A stretch of 45,577 nt of DNA from Candidatus Saccharimonadota bacterium (lineage in GTDB: Bacteria > Patescibacteriota > Saccharimonadia > Saccharimonadales > Saccharimonadaceae). Both the position numbers and the translations under genes were made by a program. The stretch covers positions 1 through 45,577 of the forward strand of contig JAFRLA010000005.1 of NCBI GenBank assembly GCA_017431465.1. The letters are read 5' to 3'. This document shows positions 32,169-42,129 of this stretch, one piece after another. The notes under the pieces were generated by a model. It saw only the letters and a list, made by a program, of their open reading frames with translations, made no database searches and had not been told where the DNA came from. How positions within the stretch are numbered: position 1 is the stretch's first letter; every line of letters starts with the position of its first letter.

Positions 32169-34106
32169 ATGCTAAAAACTCATTTTTTCATTTTCTTGGC
32201 CGGCACAACACTCCTCGCCAGCCTGATCATCCCCCAAAACCTTAACCACGCCGTCGCCGCAGGCTGCAAAGACGTCGAATTTATTTTTGCGCGCGGCTCC
32301 GGCTCTGAATTTGGCGGCCGCAACGAAACCGCTTGGCGAAACGGCCTAACCGAACAGCTAAAAACCACCAGCCTAACCTATGACTTTTACGAACTTGGGC
32401 TCAAAGAATACGACGGCGCCCAATACCCCGCCTACTCCGTCGGTTTCGAGAATTGGCGTAGCGCCTTTACTGCCTTTACCGCCGTTTTCGACGCTCTGAA
32501 CATCGGACGATTCAACCGTAGCGTAGAACAAGGCGTAACCGAGCTCGTCGGTCGCGTAAAATCTGTCTCAAGCTCTTGCCCAAACACTAAATTCGTCCTC
32601 GGCGGCTATTCTCAGGGCGCGCTCGTCGTCGACCGTGCCGCCAAAAAGCTAAAACCCGAAAGAATCGCCTACGTCGCCACTTTTGGCGATCCTAACCTCT
32701 ATTTACCAGAGGGCCGCGGCCTGATCAACCCGCCAGCCTGCCGCGGAGAAAATCTTTCGAAATACCGAATTTATGCCCCGGATTGCCACGCTTATACTGG
32801 ACTGCTCGGCACAAACAAGCCGTACGAACCCGCCGGAGCAGAAGGTCGAGTCGGTCTCTGGTGTACCAAAACCGATATTTTCTGTAGCGGTACGCTTAAC
32901 CTTAAAGATTTAATCGGCGACCACCTCGTCTATCGTGACAACGGCCTCTATTATTCTGCGGCAAAAACTATTATAAAAAGCGTCCTAAAACTCTTCCCGA
33001 CGAAAAAGCCCACTGTCGCGACTAAAACCTACGCCAAGCGCGATACCGCAATTTTAATCGATACAACCGGCTCGATGGCCAGCGTAATCGATCAATACCG
33101 CGCCGAAGCCCTGAGGCTTGCCTCTGAAACGCTTTCTAGCGGCGGCCGAGTCGCGCTCTTCGAATATCGCGACCTAGACGATCCCTATAATACTCATAAG
33201 ATCCTCGATTTCGGTTGCACCTACGCCGAGTTTAAAGCGGCCATCGAAAACCTATCTGTTGACGGCGGCGGGGATGTCCCCGAATCGGTCCTCTCCGGCG
33301 CACTCTACGCCATGAATAACCTAGCCTGGCGCCCTGGCGCAACCAAATCCCTCATTGTCTTAACTGATGCTAGTTACCACGACCCCGACCGCGACGGCAC
33401 GACTTTAGAGATGGTAACTAGGCGTTCTCTAGAGATCGACCCAGTAAATATTTACGCCATCGTCCCTGATACTACCGTCCCCGATTACGCCACGCTAACC
33501 ACCGCCACTAACGGCCGAACATTCACTTTATCAGACGATCTCTCGCTCTCGACCGACTATCTCCTCGCCCGCCCAGAGGTCAATTTCGCCCTAGAGGAAT
33601 ACTCTGGAAAACCCGGAGAGGCCTTTAGTTTTGCCGCCGAGACCGACGACGAAAATCTAACTTATGACTGGGACTTAGACCTAGACGGGGAATTCGAAAC
33701 CCTAAACGCCGACTCCATAGTTACAAAAACCTACTCGGCGCCCATTTCCGGCTTCGTCCAAGTCCGAGTTACCGACGAAAATGGCCTGTCTAGCACCGCT
33801 TCGGCCAAAGTTGCCGTCTCTTATGACGCCGGGGAAGCCAGTCCCGAGATCCTTACTGTCTCTCGCGCCGGCGATAATGTAAATTTTACAACATCGTCTA
33901 ATACTTACGCTACACTACTCGCTCTAGACGGCGTACCCCTGGGAATAACCAGAGACCGCTCTATCGCTATTAATAATATCGAAACCAAGTCAACTCTCAG
34001 TCTAGTACCGCTAACTAGCTCCGGGCTCAAAGGCGAGAGCAAACAGATTACTCTCCCAGCTAATTTAAAAATCGACCTAAAAGCCCCCAAAGCCGGCACG
34101 TTGTAA
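32169..34106 (+). CDS. Secreted cutinase-like hydrolase fused to VWA and PKD-like domains
   Basis: A 645-residue exported protein. Residues 1-30 are a signal peptide. Residues about 33-265 are a cutinase-type serine esterase: F-A-R-G-S-G-S near the oxyanion site, nucleophile Ser148 in G-G-Y-S-Q-G-A, Asp236 in C-T-K-T-D-I-F-C between two Cys, and His252 in G-D-H-L-V-Y. Residues about 290-470 are a von Willebrand A domain with MIDAS residues Asp298, Thr300, Ser302 (I-D-T-T-G-S-M-A-S), G-G-G-D-V-P-E and L-T-D-A-S. Residues about 480-560 look like a PKD/Ig fold, and a further beta domain ends the protein. No membrane anchor is seen. Cutinases act on cutin, lipid esters or, in mycolic-acid actinobacteria, cell-envelope lipids. 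The fusion and any action on host lipids are inferred. Confidence 0.8.
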   Translation: MLKTHFFIFLAGTTLLASLIIPQNLNHAVAAGCKDVEFIFARGSGSEFGGRNETAWRNGLTEQLKTTSLTYDFYELGLKEYDGAQYPAYSVGFENWRSAFTAFTAVFDALNIGRFNRSVEQGVTELVGRVKSVSSSCPNTKFVLGGYSQGALVVDRAAKKLKPERIAYVATFGDPNLYLPEGRGLINPPACRGENLSKYRIYAPDCHAYTGLLGTNKPYEPAGAEGRVGLWCTKTDIFCSGTLNLKDLIGDHLVYRDNGLYYSAAKTIIKSVLKLFPTKKPTVATKTYAKRDTAILIDTTGSMASVIDQYRAEALRLASETLSSGGRVALFEYRDLDDPYNTHKILDFGCTYAEFKAAIENLSVDGGGDVPESVLSGALYAMNNLAWRPGATKSLIVLTDASYHDPDRDGTTLEMVTRRSLEIDPVNIYAIVPDTTVPDYATLTTATNGRTFTLSDDLSLSTDYLLARPEVNFALEEYSGKPGEAFSFAAETDDENLTYDWDLDLDGEFETLNADSIVTKTYSAPISGFVQVRVTDENGLSSTASAKVAVSYDAGEASPEILTVSRAGDNVNFTTSSNTYATLLALDGVPLGITRDRSIAINNIETKSTLSLVPLTSSGLKGESKQITLPANLKIDLKAPKAGTL

Positions 34107-37287: not shown

Positions 37288-37374
37288 TAAGGTATATAGT
37301 TGCTGTTATAAAAACAGTGTGGTTTTTACTATAGAGAATCCAAAAACTAAGTACTTTAATAGGAGGTGTTTGTT

Positions 37375-38226
37375 ATGAACAAGAAAGTTGTCGCTGCTCT
37401 GATAGCAGCCTGTGTATCAATGTCACTCGTTGGCTGCGGATCTGCTAGCTCTACTAGCACCGCTCCTCAAAGCGCATCAGACGTAGCTACTGGTAGTTCC
37501 GTCACTCCGGCCAGCTCAGAGCCGGAAATCGCAGAGCTTGAGGCTACGCCCGAGCCCACCGAAGATCCAGCTCCCGCTAACCCCGGATTTGGCCTCGTTG
37601 ACTACAACCCGGCCGAGTCCGACCTGTTCAATCAAGGCTATGCCGATTATGTCGATGTCGAGATATCAAAGAGCGACATACTCGGCTACGACCCGAACCT
37701 GTACTCCGAGTACTACAAATCGAATCATTTCGATTTCGACGCTCTTATGTGCGATTTAGGGTATCGTCGCCCAGACAAGAAGGCTGCCACTCTCGAGTAT
37801 CTCTATACTGCTGAGAACTGGGAAGTATATGTATGGGTCCAAGAGGAAGAAGTTTGGTTCGGCCTAGAAAGCAACGACGGTCAGTACCAACTTCGCTACG
37901 ATCTCCCGCTCACAAACAGGCTATTAGAAAACATGACGTACAACGGGGACAAAGAGTACTATCCTGGCTCAATAGAGTTTAAGACTAAGCGCTTCAAAAT
38001 AGAAGCCGACTTAAGAGCAATCGCAGCCGTCTGCAAGGTAGCAGAAAACGCGCGCTATACGCGCGATCCCATACAGGGATTCCAGGCTGGTTGCTACGTG
38101 TCTGTATTCTCTCCCGATGGTCATCTTGGAGATTTCTTATCTCGTAACCTGATACAGATAACTACTACATCAGATGGACCTGCGGTGTCTGGGCCAGAGT
38201 GGTTTGTAAGAAGAGAACACTCATGA
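37375..38226 (+). CDS. Putative lipoprotein of unknown function
   Basis: A 283-residue exported protein. It has a short basic start, a hydrophobic segment and a lipobox L-V-G-C with the lipidated residue at Cys21. It is followed by a Ser/Thr/Pro/Glu-rich linker of about 50 residues, with A-T-P-E-P-T-E-D-P-A-P-A-N-P, and then an acidic, aromatic-rich globular domain of about 200 residues with two Cys near its end. I do not recognise the globular domain. ATG 37375 is fixed by AGGAGGTG 6-8 nt upstream. The gene has its own promoter and a strong terminator; its base usage is less biased than that of nearby nrdDG. Confidence 0.78.
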   Translation: MNKKVVAALIAACVSMSLVGCGSASSTSTAPQSASDVATGSSVTPASSEPEIAELEATPEPTEDPAPANPGFGLVDYNPAESDLFNQGYADYVDVEISKSDILGYDPNLYSEYYKSNHFDFDALMCDLGYRRPDKKAATLEYLYTAENWEVYVWVQEEEVWFGLESNDGQYQLRYDLPLTNRLLENMTYNGDKEYYPGSIEFKTKRFKIEADLRAIAAVCKVAENARYTRDPIQGFQAGCYVSVFSPDGHLGDFLSRNLIQITTTSDGPAVSGPEWFVRREHS

Positions 38227-38236
38227 CATACTCCAT

Positions 38237-38265
38237 AAAAAGCCCCGCTTTTAGCGGGGCTTTTT
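38237..38265. terminator. Bidirectional terminator
   Basis: AAAAAGCCCCGCT-TTT-AGCGGGGCTTTTT, a 13-bp stem between the convergent lipoprotein gene and the 983-residue protein gene. Confidence 0.9.
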
Positions 38266-41215
38266 ACATGACAAAGTTCCTGTCCTTTAGTGGGGCATAA
38301 ACGATTCTGTTTGCCAACTTTACATCCGGATTATCTGGGAGCTCTACGGAATCGAAACTGAATCTCGATATCGTCTCTTTGTTCTCGACCGGGACTGGGT
38401 ATAGATCAGACGGCTCATAATCCGCTAGATATTCCCAATAAGCAAGCTCGTTTAAGGTTACTGAAACTTGCTCTTTCGTCATACCAGTTTTTCGTGCCAA
38501 AGTGCCCTCAAAAGAGTTATCGACTGGGTTCTCCTCCTCATACCTCGACAGATAACTATCGACCGCGGAATGTTCGCTATCTACAGATTGTACCAGTCGA
38601 TCGTCCTCGACATACCGCTGATAGTATCTCATCTCATCTTTCCATGACAAAGTCTCGTACTCTACATCGTGTGGCGTAGCAGTCCCACCATTTGACTTAG
38701 TACACCGCGTCTCCTCGTCGCTCTTTTTACATTCCCTTCGTCCTTTCAGAAGCTCTGGGGCACCGATACCGGCACTACTAGCAGTAACAGTGTTATCATC
38801 GTCTCTCGCTACACAGTTGGCCCCAGTCGACCATTGTAATGCTTTAATCTCTTCCTCGCCGGCTAGAATATCCAACAAATCTCCAACGACAGGAATCGCC
38901 CCCGCCACTGAATCAATCGCCGTATCTACGGCGTCATTGCCAGTGTCCGCTTGCAGCCCACCAGACTTCAGCTCTTCATTCGTAATATTTTGATCCACAA
39001 TCCCGAAAGGAGTAGCCCTATATGAACAGAAACGTATATATTTATCTAGGTTTGAGCCTTTTTTAATCTTTTCTATTCCGTTCTCATCTACTGCAATCTT
39101 ATTGCCGTCCATCTCAAAGCCTTCTAAGTCCGCGACCTTATCTACAATATCTTCCGGGTCTGCCTCTATCGTATCCATATCAGAAATTATAATCGGGGAA
39201 CAATCCAGAGAATTCCCGACCGCACCAATACTCTCAGCGGCTGGGCAATCGCCAATTTGTGTCGCTAAATACTCGGCTTTATCGATCGCACTAGCCGTCG
39301 GGAGCAGGGAAGCAAGCGACGATGAAACCACTCCACCAAGACTACCGATAAATCCAGCCGGGCTAGTAGTCAATCCGGCTACCGGAAGCATCATACTCTT
39401 CACTATCGATCCTAGGAATGTATTACTATTTGTTGCGTCAAACGGACTCTTAGTCGCTCTGTCATATTCTGCCTCTTGTTGCAATGCTAACTTCTGAGCA
39501 TCATAAAAATCTGATATCTTGTCTTTTGAGGCCAACGTCCCGCCCCCATTCTGGAAATTAGTCTGCAGTGAACTGCTCCCCCCGATTGCCAAACAGTTTC
39601 CGCCGTCCTCATTAGGCTTTGACGGATCATCTTTATTCTCACCAGAATCCAAGCATAGGTTAGTCGTCACCGACTCTAAAAACTTACTTATTCCCCAAGA
39701 GGCCAACAGCCCAACGCCCATAGAAATCGCTGCCGATTTTCCTATTCCTAAAATCGTTTTACCAACCGAAAATCCTCCCTTAAACGCCGACACTCCTGGG
39801 ATAAAAGTTAAGACGATAGAAACTGACGCCATGGCGATTTTCGCCGCCGAACAGGCAATCGCAGTACCCGCACCAATCTGCGCCGCACTGTACATATTAC
39901 TTAAATTCAGTTTCGACAACGATTCGTTCTGGACCGGCTTTACCGAGCCCGCGGAAAGAACGCCAATCATACCTTGCGCCGTCATCTTATTGATCAAAAA
40001 GTTACCCGTCTCATGAATTGGTGAGCCTGCGCCATCACCAGCCTTAACTTTGTCCGTAGATTCCGCTACGCCGTGGAAAGAGTCCTGAGCATATTCGTGC
40101 ATCATCGAAACACCTAAGCCTATCGCGGTAGTTACGACTGCTGCCTTGGCGCAAGAAATATCCGAAATCCCTCGCGCAACCGACGCTAGATGATCTGCAA
40201 AACCCGTCTTCGCATTAACTTTGCTGTTGGCCTCGTTACTATCACTATGGGTCCATTTGTCCGCAACAACGTGCCCCTCGTCATCTGTATCCGGATCATA
40301 CTCCGTAGCAACCTGAGATTTACCTACGTCAAAATCCACATCGGGCCTTCTTCCGCGTATGATATCCTTGAATTTAGTAGTCTTGCCCTCAGCTTCAAAT
40401 GTCTGCCGCTGCCAATCCGCCCATAAATTCTTCGTCAGCCCATGCGCCGACAAAAATCTCGCCGCCGAAAGATCAATCCACGCCGCGATCCGCCCCGAAA
40501 AACTTCTCGTCCCTCGGTTAAAATCGTTCCTAAACTCCGTGTTCGTCTTATACATACTATCGAAATCGTCGGCCGACACCGTCTTCTTGTTTCCAGCACG
40601 ATTCGTGTATTCTAAAACGACCTTTTTGCCTTCGTTCTTCATCTCAATACCTTGAGCAGCCAATTTTTTCTTATATTTTTTCAGCCCTCTACGATATTTC
40701 TTGTAGTCAGAAAATAGGTGCTTCTGGGTTACTTTATCCTCTTTTCCGTCCATATTCGCCACATTCTTCATCATCTTCGGCAACCGATTCGCCCTCGAAG
40801 TAAACGACCCGTCAAACATTTCCGTTACCTGCTCAACTACGTGAAATGGCATCAGACTTTGAATCCCGCCAATCGCCGCTCCACCCCCGAAAATCGCCAT
40901 CGCAATTCCAATAATCGGCCCATACTTCTTGAACTTGCTCTTGCTGCCTTTGGTTTTGCGCCCTCGTCGCGAAAAACCTCGCGGATCTAGCGCAATCGCG
41001 CCTCCCGCGCCAGCATAAAATCCCCCATTTTCCAACCCAGAGGCATCATTTTCTCCAGAAGCCCCCGAGCCATCAGCCGCCGCGTCTTCCCCTCCGCGCA
41101 GCCTGGCTCTCGCATCCGCCGCCGCGGCAGCCTTCTCAGCATCACGCGACTTTTTCCCAGGCAAATGCGGATCAATACTATCACCAACCGACTTCTTATA
41201 TAATCCCTCCGACAT
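38264..41215 (-). CDS. Large membrane protein, lineage-specific, unknown function
   Basis: A 983-residue protein that I cannot place in a family. It starts with a charged, low-complexity cytosolic region (about 1-100; Ala/Asp/Gly-rich, then a very basic K-T-K-G-S-K-S-K-F-K-K). One transmembrane helix lies near 102-122, then an exported helical region, and a central block of several hydrophobic helices (about 345-365, 435-475, 490-515). The C-terminal ~450 residues carry at least eight Cys in pairs and a Tyr/Glu-rich end, suggesting disulfides outside the cell. The layout recalls VirB6/TrbL-type secretion channel proteins, but no motif proves that. A minus-strand TATAAT/TAATAT lies 7-9 nt before the ATG, so little or no leader is expected. 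Confidence 0.75.
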   Translation of the reverse strand: MSEGLYKKSVGDSIDPHLPGKKSRDAEKAAAAADARARLRGGEDAAADGSGASGENDASGLENGGFYAGAGGAIALDPRGFSRRGRKTKGSKSKFKKYGPIIGIAMAIFGGGAAIGGIQSLMPFHVVEQVTEMFDGSFTSRANRLPKMMKNVANMDGKEDKVTQKHLFSDYKKYRRGLKKYKKKLAAQGIEMKNEGKKVVLEYTNRAGNKKTVSADDFDSMYKTNTEFRNDFNRGTRSFSGRIAAWIDLSAARFLSAHGLTKNLWADWQRQTFEAEGKTTKFKDIIRGRRPDVDFDVGKSQVATEYDPDTDDEGHVVADKWTHSDSNEANSKVNAKTGFADHLASVARGISDISCAKAAVVTTAIGLGVSMMHEYAQDSFHGVAESTDKVKAGDGAGSPIHETGNFLINKMTAQGMIGVLSAGSVKPVQNESLSKLNLSNMYSAAQIGAGTAIACSAAKIAMASVSIVLTFIPGVSAFKGGFSVGKTILGIGKSAAISMGVGLLASWGISKFLESVTTNLCLDSGENKDDPSKPNEDGGNCLAIGGSSSLQTNFQNGGGTLASKDKISDFYDAQKLALQQEAEYDRATKSPFDATNSNTFLGSIVKSMMLPVAGLTTSPAGFIGSLGGVVSSSLASLLPTASAIDKAEYLATQIGDCPAAESIGAVGNSLDCSPIIISDMDTIEADPEDIVDKVADLEGFEMDGNKIAVDENGIEKIKKGSNLDKYIRFCSYRATPFGIVDQNITNEELKSGGLQADTGNDAVDTAIDSVAGAIPVVGDLLDILAGEEEIKALQWSTGANCVARDDDNTVTASSAGIGAPELLKGRRECKKSDEETRCTKSNGGTATPHDVEYETLSWKDEMRYYQRYVEDDRLVQSVDSEHSAVDSYLSRYEEENPVDNSFEGTLARKTGMTKEQVSVTLNELAYWEYLADYEPSDLYPVPVENKETISRFSFDSVELPDNPDVKLANRIVYAPLKDRNFVM

Positions 41216-41259: not shown

Positions 41260-41334
41260 TGGCTGGGATGGCAGGGATCGAACCTGCGAATGACGGGACC
41301 AACACCCGCTGCCTTACCACTTGGCGACATCACA
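41260..41334 (-). tRNA. tRNA-Gln-like (anticodon TTG) with atypical anticodon loop
   Basis: A 75-nt cloverleaf on the minus strand with a tRNA-Gln-like D arm (GCCAAGTGGTAAGGC), anticodon stem GCGGG/CCCGT, loop TGTTGGT, T arm GCAGG-TTCGATC-CCTGC and encoded GCCA end. The 7-nt loop gives anticodon TTG (Gln). Position 33 is G instead of the nearly universal U, and the acceptor stem has a U-C mismatch at 3-70. It lies between the ABC exporter operon and the 983-residue protein gene on the minus strand. Confidence 0.8.
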
Positions 41335-41369
41335 GTGCACTTTTCATTATATCAAAAAACCTTAAAATG

Positions 41370-41378
41370 TGCTAATAT
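41370..41378 (+). promoter_or_regulatory. Extended -10 of the leaderless ABC exporter promoter
   Basis: TGC-TAATAT ends 7 nt before the ATG at 41386. It lies between the 5' end of tRNA-Gln (minus strand) and the operon. Confidence 0.55.
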
Positions 41379-41385
41379 AGATAGT

Positions 41386-42129
41386 ATGAAAGAAATTATC
41401 GAGGTAAGAAATTTAACTAAAGTTTATGGCAAAAAAGCTGCAGCTTTCTCGGCCTTAAAATCTGTCAATTTAAAAATCTACGAAGGAGAATCGGTCGCTA
41501 TCGTCGGCAAATCCGGCTCTGGTAAATCGACCTTGATGCATCTTTTGGCGCTTCTAGACACCCCGACCCAGGGGCAAGTCCTAATCGACGGCGAAAACGC
41601 GTCCAAAATGAAAAAACGCAAAGTCAACAAACTCCGGAGCAACCGTTTTGGCTTCGTTTTCCAACAGTTCTTCATGAACCCGAATGACACTGTTTTAGAA
41701 AACGTCCTTCTCCCGCTAAAGATCGCCAAAGTTAAGCGCAGTACTAGAAAAAAGCGCGCCATGACCGCTCTAAAAATCGTTGGCCTCGAAGACAAAGCTA
41801 AAAATAAAGCTAACAATCTTTCCGGCGGCCAAAAACAGCGCGTTTGTATCGCTCGCGCCATCGTCAACAGCCCGAAAATTATCTTCGCTGACGAACCGAC
41901 TGGCAACCTCGATTCTGCGACCGGCGATAAAATCACCGACCTGCTCTTCCGCCTGAATCAAAAGGGCGTAACTTTAATCATCGTTACCCATGATGAAGAT
42001 CTGGCAAAGCTTTGTGGCCGCGTCATTCGCATTTCTGATGGTAAAATCATTAGCGACAAACGCCAAAGAGCCGTTGCCCCTAGAAGGCCGGCCGCCAAAA
42101 AAGTACCAGTAGCAAGAAAGCGGGGTTAG
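41386..42129 (+). CDS. ABC transporter ATPase, MacB/LolD type
   Basis: Nucleotide-binding subunit of a type VII (MacB-like) ABC system. The 247-residue protein has Walker A ([10 protein letters not shown]), the Q-loop (V-F-Q-Q-F-F), the signature L-S-G-G-Q-K-Q-R, Walker B ([12 protein letters not shown]) and the switch His (V-T-H-D-E). A basic Ala/Pro-rich tail follows. ATG 41386 is chosen because the -10 TAATAT ends 7 nt before it; a longer frame would run back through the tRNA-Gln gene. Two permease genes follow at 1-2 nt spacing, forming one operon. Confidence 0.93.

Follow-up and report, generated by a model that had tools for sequence, protein, structure and literature searches.

The 983-residue protein described here is probably a membrane-anchored and mostly exported component of the chromosomal type IV secretion system (T4SS) of Saccharibacteria, of which it would be a second, divergent copy encoded away from the T4SS operon. 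Its gene lies in a 45,577-nucleotide stretch of a Candidatus Saccharimonadota genome, the whole of which is referred to as the window. The link with the T4SS is well supported for the family to which the protein belongs (the trunk family), and we infer it for the copy in the window.

Saccharibacteria are tiny bacteria living on other bacteria, and in one species the T4SS has been reported as essential for epibiotic growth. For the outer part of this machine the trunk family offers a concrete candidate, being lineage-specific, fast-evolving, probably held by disulfides and duplicated in tiny genomes. The wall-cutting ends found in some relatives provide a testable idea of how the T4SS reaches the host. 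The features of the protein are listed in Table 1.

Table 1. Parts of the 983-residue protein and their positions in the window
Feature	Position	Strand	Evidence
Member of the VirB4-linked T4SS family encoded away from the operon, 983 aa	38264..41215	-	ORF, translation, own-genome paralogue behind virB4
Charged head, residues 1-95, predicted cytosolic; E43 and E55 almost invariant among members	40931..41215	-	
Membrane anchor, residues 100-118, preceded by a basic stretch; predicted N-in/C-out	40862..40918	-	
Helix/strand region, residues 121-340, predicted exported	40196..40855	-	AlphaFold2 secondary structure
Moderately hydrophobic helices, residues 350-518; C355/C455 co-present or co-absent	39662..40168	-	
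Conserved core domain, residues 531-815; pLDDT 82.8 when modelled alone	38771..39625	-	
Family signature DR...SPFD.T..NTFLGS, residues 585-604	39404..39463	-	60-member alignment
C730 codon, coupled with C801	39026..39028	-	
C801 codon, coupled with C730	38813..38815	-	
Helical C-terminal domain, residues 846-945, YYQ.Y.ED ... NP.DNS.EG.LAR..G	38381..38680	-	

Coding status and architecture

The open reading frame starts with ATG, contains no internal stops and is the longest in the window. A Pfam scan covering ten ORFs of the window gave no family at E<=0.1 for its product, and the NCBIfam search returned a single row (E 0.074), far under the family cut-off. A large, unrecognised membrane protein of 983 residues had been predicted from the letters alone, and this part of the original prediction was confirmed. 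With the nearest orthologue found (L215, from the goat-ileum Candidatus Saccharibacteria record RGIG2350) the protein shares 60.6% amino acid identity, the differences at the three codon positions are 0.30/0.22/0.58 and pN/pS is 0.35. Judged by this pattern of substitution, the ORF is evidently coding and under purifying selection.

The family alignment consists of 60 rows, L088 and L093 having been omitted from the 62 members found. P591, D593, T599 and G602 are invariant in it, and the positions that are either invariant or at least 90% conserved comprise E43, E55, C355, C455, R586, S590, P591, D593, T599, G602, C657 and a few more. In a simple hydropathy scan of the 60-member family mean the strongest hydrophobic peak falls at residues 100-118, directly after the basic stretch, and weaker peaks are found at residues 350-368, 460-478, 495-513 and 766-784. 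With regard to a polytopic inner-membrane core, a trait of VirB6/TrbL, the scan shows one strong and several weak peaks. Everything after the anchor at residues 100-118 is presumably exported, and all ten cysteines of the protein are located at residue 355 or beyond.

The AlphaFold2 model of the whole protein has a pTM of 0.74 and a mean pLDDT of 68.7, the stretches with pLDDT below 50 including residues 1-23, 49-89 and 937-983. The core (residues 531-815) modelled alone with 100 sequences, which represent 100 of the 104 collected family members, reached a pLDDT of 82.8 and a pTM of 0.74. The head had been described beforehand as charged, disordered and of low complexity; it is charged and partly disordered, but it is not merely low-complexity, as conservation of E43 and E55 reaches at least 90% in the 60 members and the head is 74% identical between the protein and its nearest orthologue. 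A profile of 100 heads matched, beyond the counted members, only the open-ended ORFs L190 and L129, and L190 was matched by the family profile as well.

An exported trunk is indicated by coupled cysteines. Among 104 aligned members, C355 and C455 are both present in 93, neither is present in 11 and one alone in none, counts that rest on one alignment with a gap at C455 in 10 of the 11 members devoid of it. From the same alignment, C730 and C801 are both present in 72 members, both missing in 32 and never found singly. On the tree, one state change was reconstructed for C355/C455 and eight for C730/C801, and C730/C801 is therefore the stronger evidence of the two, the other pair reflecting a single loss. 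Such all-or-none pairs suggest disulfides, C355-C455 and C730-C801, which would be formed outside the cell, and hence an exported trunk. The central hydrophobic block that had been predicted does exist, but it is only moderately hydrophobic, and given the probable C355-C455 bond an ordinary membrane hairpin is hard to accommodate there. A search of the protein's own genome for VKOR, which is one of the enzymes that form disulfides, found none. Eight short members of 718-776 aa (L050, L052, L054, L057, L076, L224, L225 and L226) possess neither coupled pair. They adjoin genes which we take to be dnaA-dnaN-recF-like, near the likely replication origin.

The T4SS operon and its family gene

The protein's own genome has 656 kb in 32 contigs and is 98% complete, the window being contig C8. 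The only other family copy detected in it (E<=10) lies on contig C17 and is 31% identical over residues 240-803 (E 2.4e-29). The order of genes on C17 is a VirB6-family gene, PrgI/VirB3, TrsD-like, VirB4, the family copy, a glucosaminidase gene and a PEGA-domain protein. The family copy is thus placed between VirB4 (P-loop_TraG 1.2e-27), the single VirB4 of this genome, and the glucosaminidase gene (PF01832 1.4e-13). Of the remaining products, PrgI was recognised by PF12666 (6.3e-13), the TrsD-like protein by NCBIfam (9.8e-7, under its cut-off) and the PEGA-domain protein at E 2.1e-4, just over its cut-off. The VirB6-family protein (980 aa) owes its label to a family profile (E below 1e-180).

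The same order, VirB6 - PrgI - TrsD-like - VirB4 - family - glucosaminidase - PEGA, recurs in loci of relatives. A VirB4 gene is found within three ORFs in 56 of the 104 collected members, a set which is no random sample, as its loci were picked by family match or by VirB4 similarity and thus partly for that very trait. Eighty further loci were picked on VirB4 similarity alone; virB4 is followed immediately by a family member in 25 of them, by an unlabelled ORF in 42, by a glucosaminidase gene in 10 and by a PEGA gene in 2, and 1 locus ends at this point. In L223 the end of a VirB6-family ORF overlaps the start of the family ORF by one base, and VirB4 is absent from that 15-kb stretch.

Among 151 genomes of the same taxonomic family, a family match was obtained in 73 with the single protein as a query and in 124 with the 60-row profile, while VirB4 was found in 133, a count that takes in a second VirB4 type, about 40% identical. 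Both are present in 119 genomes, the family only in 5, VirB4 only in 14 and neither in 13, in a table hand-merged from two listings with 7 unlisted family-negative genomes assigned by elimination. The association gives a Fisher p of 5e-8, ignoring relatedness and completeness. Five genomes carry the family with no VirB4 match (G003, G025, G055, G056 and G059), of which two reach 90% completeness (91 and 98%). In a phylum-wide draw, 17 of 286 genomes were matched: 14 of the own family, 2 of other families of the same order and 1 elsewhere (E 3e-7). The family is nearly restricted to its own order.

It had been proposed that the protein belongs to the host-contact machinery, with co-occurrence with a secretion ATPase named as a check. 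For the family this link is supported, given the own-genome paralogue behind virB4, the recurrence of this slot in relatives and the co-occurrence with VirB4; neither a match to an unrelated known family nor a consistent absence of T4SS genes from carriers was found.

Varying C-terminal ends

The core is common to family members whichever end is attached to it. The helical C-terminal domain is present in 72 of the 104 members, the 983-residue protein included, and was not found in any other ORF of the searched loci. Pfam domains in 21 members of other genera were M23 (8), M15_4 (3), VanY (3), CHAP (1) and Exo_endo_phos (2), and in the remaining 41 members scanned there was one CHAP domain. Ten hand-picked C-terminal pieces yielded M23 in 6 (two of them behind Exo_endo_phos), M15/VanY in 2 and nothing in 2. 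In a simple-pattern check of 27 members, namely 26 devoid of the helical domain and L055, an M15-ended member that had been included in the helical-domain count too, both M23 zinc-site motifs were present in 6 and the M15 motif in 3. Taken together, the pattern and Pfam counts indicate that many members devoid of the helical domain are also devoid of a recognised enzyme. Two trunk proteins of about 1540 aa, L088:6854-11458 (-) and L093:6498-11117 (-), stand behind virB4 and carry Exo_endo_phos followed by a C-terminal M23.

The M23, M15/VanY and CHAP ends, some with both M23 zinc-site motifs, raise the possibility of a T4SS peptidoglycan hydrolase of the VirB1/PrgK type, whose catalytic end was lost or became unrecognisable in the present protein and whose job would be local wall remodelling only. 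PrgK of pCF10 is such a T4SS enzyme acting on the wall, and it combines LytM, SLT and CHAP domains (PMC11323569). This reading is nevertheless unlikely. The 983-residue protein has a helical domain in place of the enzyme, no hydrolase domain in it was recognised by Pfam or NCBIfam, and its own genome was found to have no M23 domain at E<=0.001; the operon copy is followed by a glucosaminidase encoded separately, and the core remains the same whichever end is present.

A common trunk with varied ends, including Exo_endo_phos before M23 in L088 and L093, could also be expected of a secreted T4SS substrate, that is, an effector whose trunk, conserved for delivery, carries a variable active end directed at the host bacterium. 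Rapid divergence and the many genomes with more than one copy agree with it, but the membrane anchor and the head are conserved and the gene recurs in a slot within a structural operon, which makes an effector quite unlikely.

Divergence and dispersed copies

When the own genome is compared with the nearest one, identity is 95.2% for VirB4, 78.4% for the operon copy of the family and 60.6% for the dispersed copy. In pairs with VirB4 85-90% identical (drawn from a random 350 among 54 operons), the family copies average 36% identity (24-57), PrgI 54%, VirB6 36%, the glucosaminidase 36% and the PEGA protein 32%. The family diverges much faster than VirB4; since VirB6, the glucosaminidase and PEGA diverge fast as well, the fast change is not special to the trunk family.

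The window copy has no T4SS neighbours and lies among housekeeping genes and an ABC transporter, and may therefore have taken another role. Dispersed copies recur beside NrdD/NrdG genes (the type of the window) and beside genes that are presumably MetG/PheT-like and DnaA/DnaN/RecF-like, the names outside the window being assumed by us from N-terminal sequences. As a clue to function these neighbours were set aside, being housekeeping and ABC genes. Site-specific lineages were considered and were borne out only in part by the trunk tree (FastTree). The window protein groups with the Nrd-site copies L215 and L216 (support 1.0), the other 5 of the 8 Nrd-site copies fall elsewhere, and so do some copies of other sites; position and descent agree, then, only in part.

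In the window's genus, the VirB4 locus was fetched with no family gene in 7 of 10 genomes, each of which has one VirB4 and one or two family copies elsewhere. The family gene is directly behind virB4 in the own genome and in G126, and in G104 two ABC genes of opposite strand stand between virB4 and the copy. If the dispersed copy had once been part of the T4SS and were now an ordinary surface protein working apart from it, its housekeeping neighbourhood and its lower identity than that of the operon copy in the same two genomes would be accounted for. This is very improbable, as the head, the anchor, the core signature and the C-terminal domain are all retained, and with copies found solely away from virB4 in those 7 genomes, it is hard to see every dispersed copy as unconnected with the T4SS.

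Relation to VirB6/TrbL and search for known folds

The original prediction pointed to VirB6/TrbL-like channel proteins. In Tn916-type elements the gene order is VirB4-VirB6-VirB1, which together with the large size, the hydrophobic block and the T4SS linkage was counted in favour of such an identity, but it is hardly tenable and was rejected: a profile-profile alignment of the trunk family (60 members) and the VirB6 family from these operons (26 members) gave an hhalign probability of 1.1%, the operon has a separate VirB6/TrbL-family gene, and PF04610 and PF19590 do not match the protein. PF04610 matches 5 of the 26 VirB6-family relatives (best 1.6e-5) and was not listed at E<=0.05 for any of the 62 trunk-family members; the VirB6-family protein of the own operon has no PF04610 row itself. 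PF19590 gave no row at E<=10 in the own genome.

The sole PF04610 match in the own genome is another gene, on contig C24 (L228:7219-10581), encoding another VirB6/TrbL-family protein (1120 aa) away from the operon (3.1e-6, slightly under the curated cut-off). This genome accordingly possesses one VirB4, two VirB6-family and two trunk-family genes.

Foldseek searches of the PDB with the whole model and with the core gave no match at E<=0.001, follow-up comparisons of the two by VIA-align had a best Z of 2.1 and no Z of 2 or more, respectively, and a BFVD search with the core gave no match at E<=0.001, which is not proof of a new fold. Against PDB sequences, the family profile returned three rows (best E 0.012) that were taken as chance. 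An NTF2-like exported domain, a trait of VirB8, was not listed in the fold searches, and an unlisted row is not proof of absence.

Comparison with known systems

The Patescibacterial chromosomal T4SS has been described, and in strain ML1 the "peptidase and lysozyme homologues" encoded next after virB4 are reported as essential (PMC12102498). The T4SS of S. epibionticum ML1 (SEML1_0006-0019) is reported as essential for epibiotic growth and of unusual subunit composition (PMC10633639). The machine is the same as the one considered here, with a monoderm-type VirB4, PrgI/VirB3, TrsD and VirB6. It may be guessed that the essential ML1 peptidase behind virB4 corresponds to the peptidase-ended family members. 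In contrast, the trunk family, its varying ends and its dispersed copies are not described in the accessible parts of these two accounts, and full-text searches of the literature turned up no description of the family.

PrgK, which is VirB1-like, shares with some family members the types of their ends, as it has extracellular LytM (M23-type) and CHAP domains. SLT is reported as the only active domain of the three (PMC11323569); in the trunk family, unlike PrgK, no SLT/muramidase domain was found, and its trunk has no match. In Rickettsia five large VirB6 copies have been described, with their genes together in one islet (PMC2653234). The likeness consists in large, variable and duplicated T4SS subunits of a host-dependent bacterium with a reduced genome, and the difference in that the trunk-family copies are scattered. 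The trunk family also differs from VirB6/TrbL itself, as homology to the operons' own VirB6 family could not be detected.

Proposed mechanism

The protein would act as an anchored, wall-crossing part of the T4SS with an exchangeable end. The conserved head may dock inside the cell, at the VirB4/VirB6 base, one helix would anchor the protein in the membrane, and the disulfide-held trunk would span the wall zone. The C-terminal module could then work in the wall or next to it, at the point of contact between machine and host. A dispersed copy would let the single VirB4 engine use an alternative outer part.

A wider reading, held tentatively and doubtful as yet, is that one VirB4 engine serves several interchangeable outer modules scattered over the chromosome, a VirB6 paralogue together with a trunk-family protein, each ending in a part of its own that faces the wall or the host. 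On the same tentative footing, this would amount to a retoolable injector in a sub-megabase parasite, with a fold possibly not yet among the solved structures.

Neighbouring genes in the window

A secreted-looking protein is encoded at 32169-34106 (+), with matches to Cutinase (7.9e-20) and VWA_4 (5.6e-13) and weak PKD matches, and its homologues occur near NrdD/NrdG in six further loci. As a guess, a cutinase-type lipase of an epibiont could act on the surface lipids of the host. The gene at 37366-38226 (+), adjoining the 983-residue gene in convergent orientation, encodes a putative lipoprotein of 286 aa with a lipobox-like LVGC; it matched no Pfam family at E<=0.1, and its NCBIfam rows were weak and under cut-off. 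The ABC-transporter ORF at 41290-42129 (+), called from the first ATG, overlaps the tRNA-Gln gene at 41260-41334 (-), and its true start is therefore probably further downstream.
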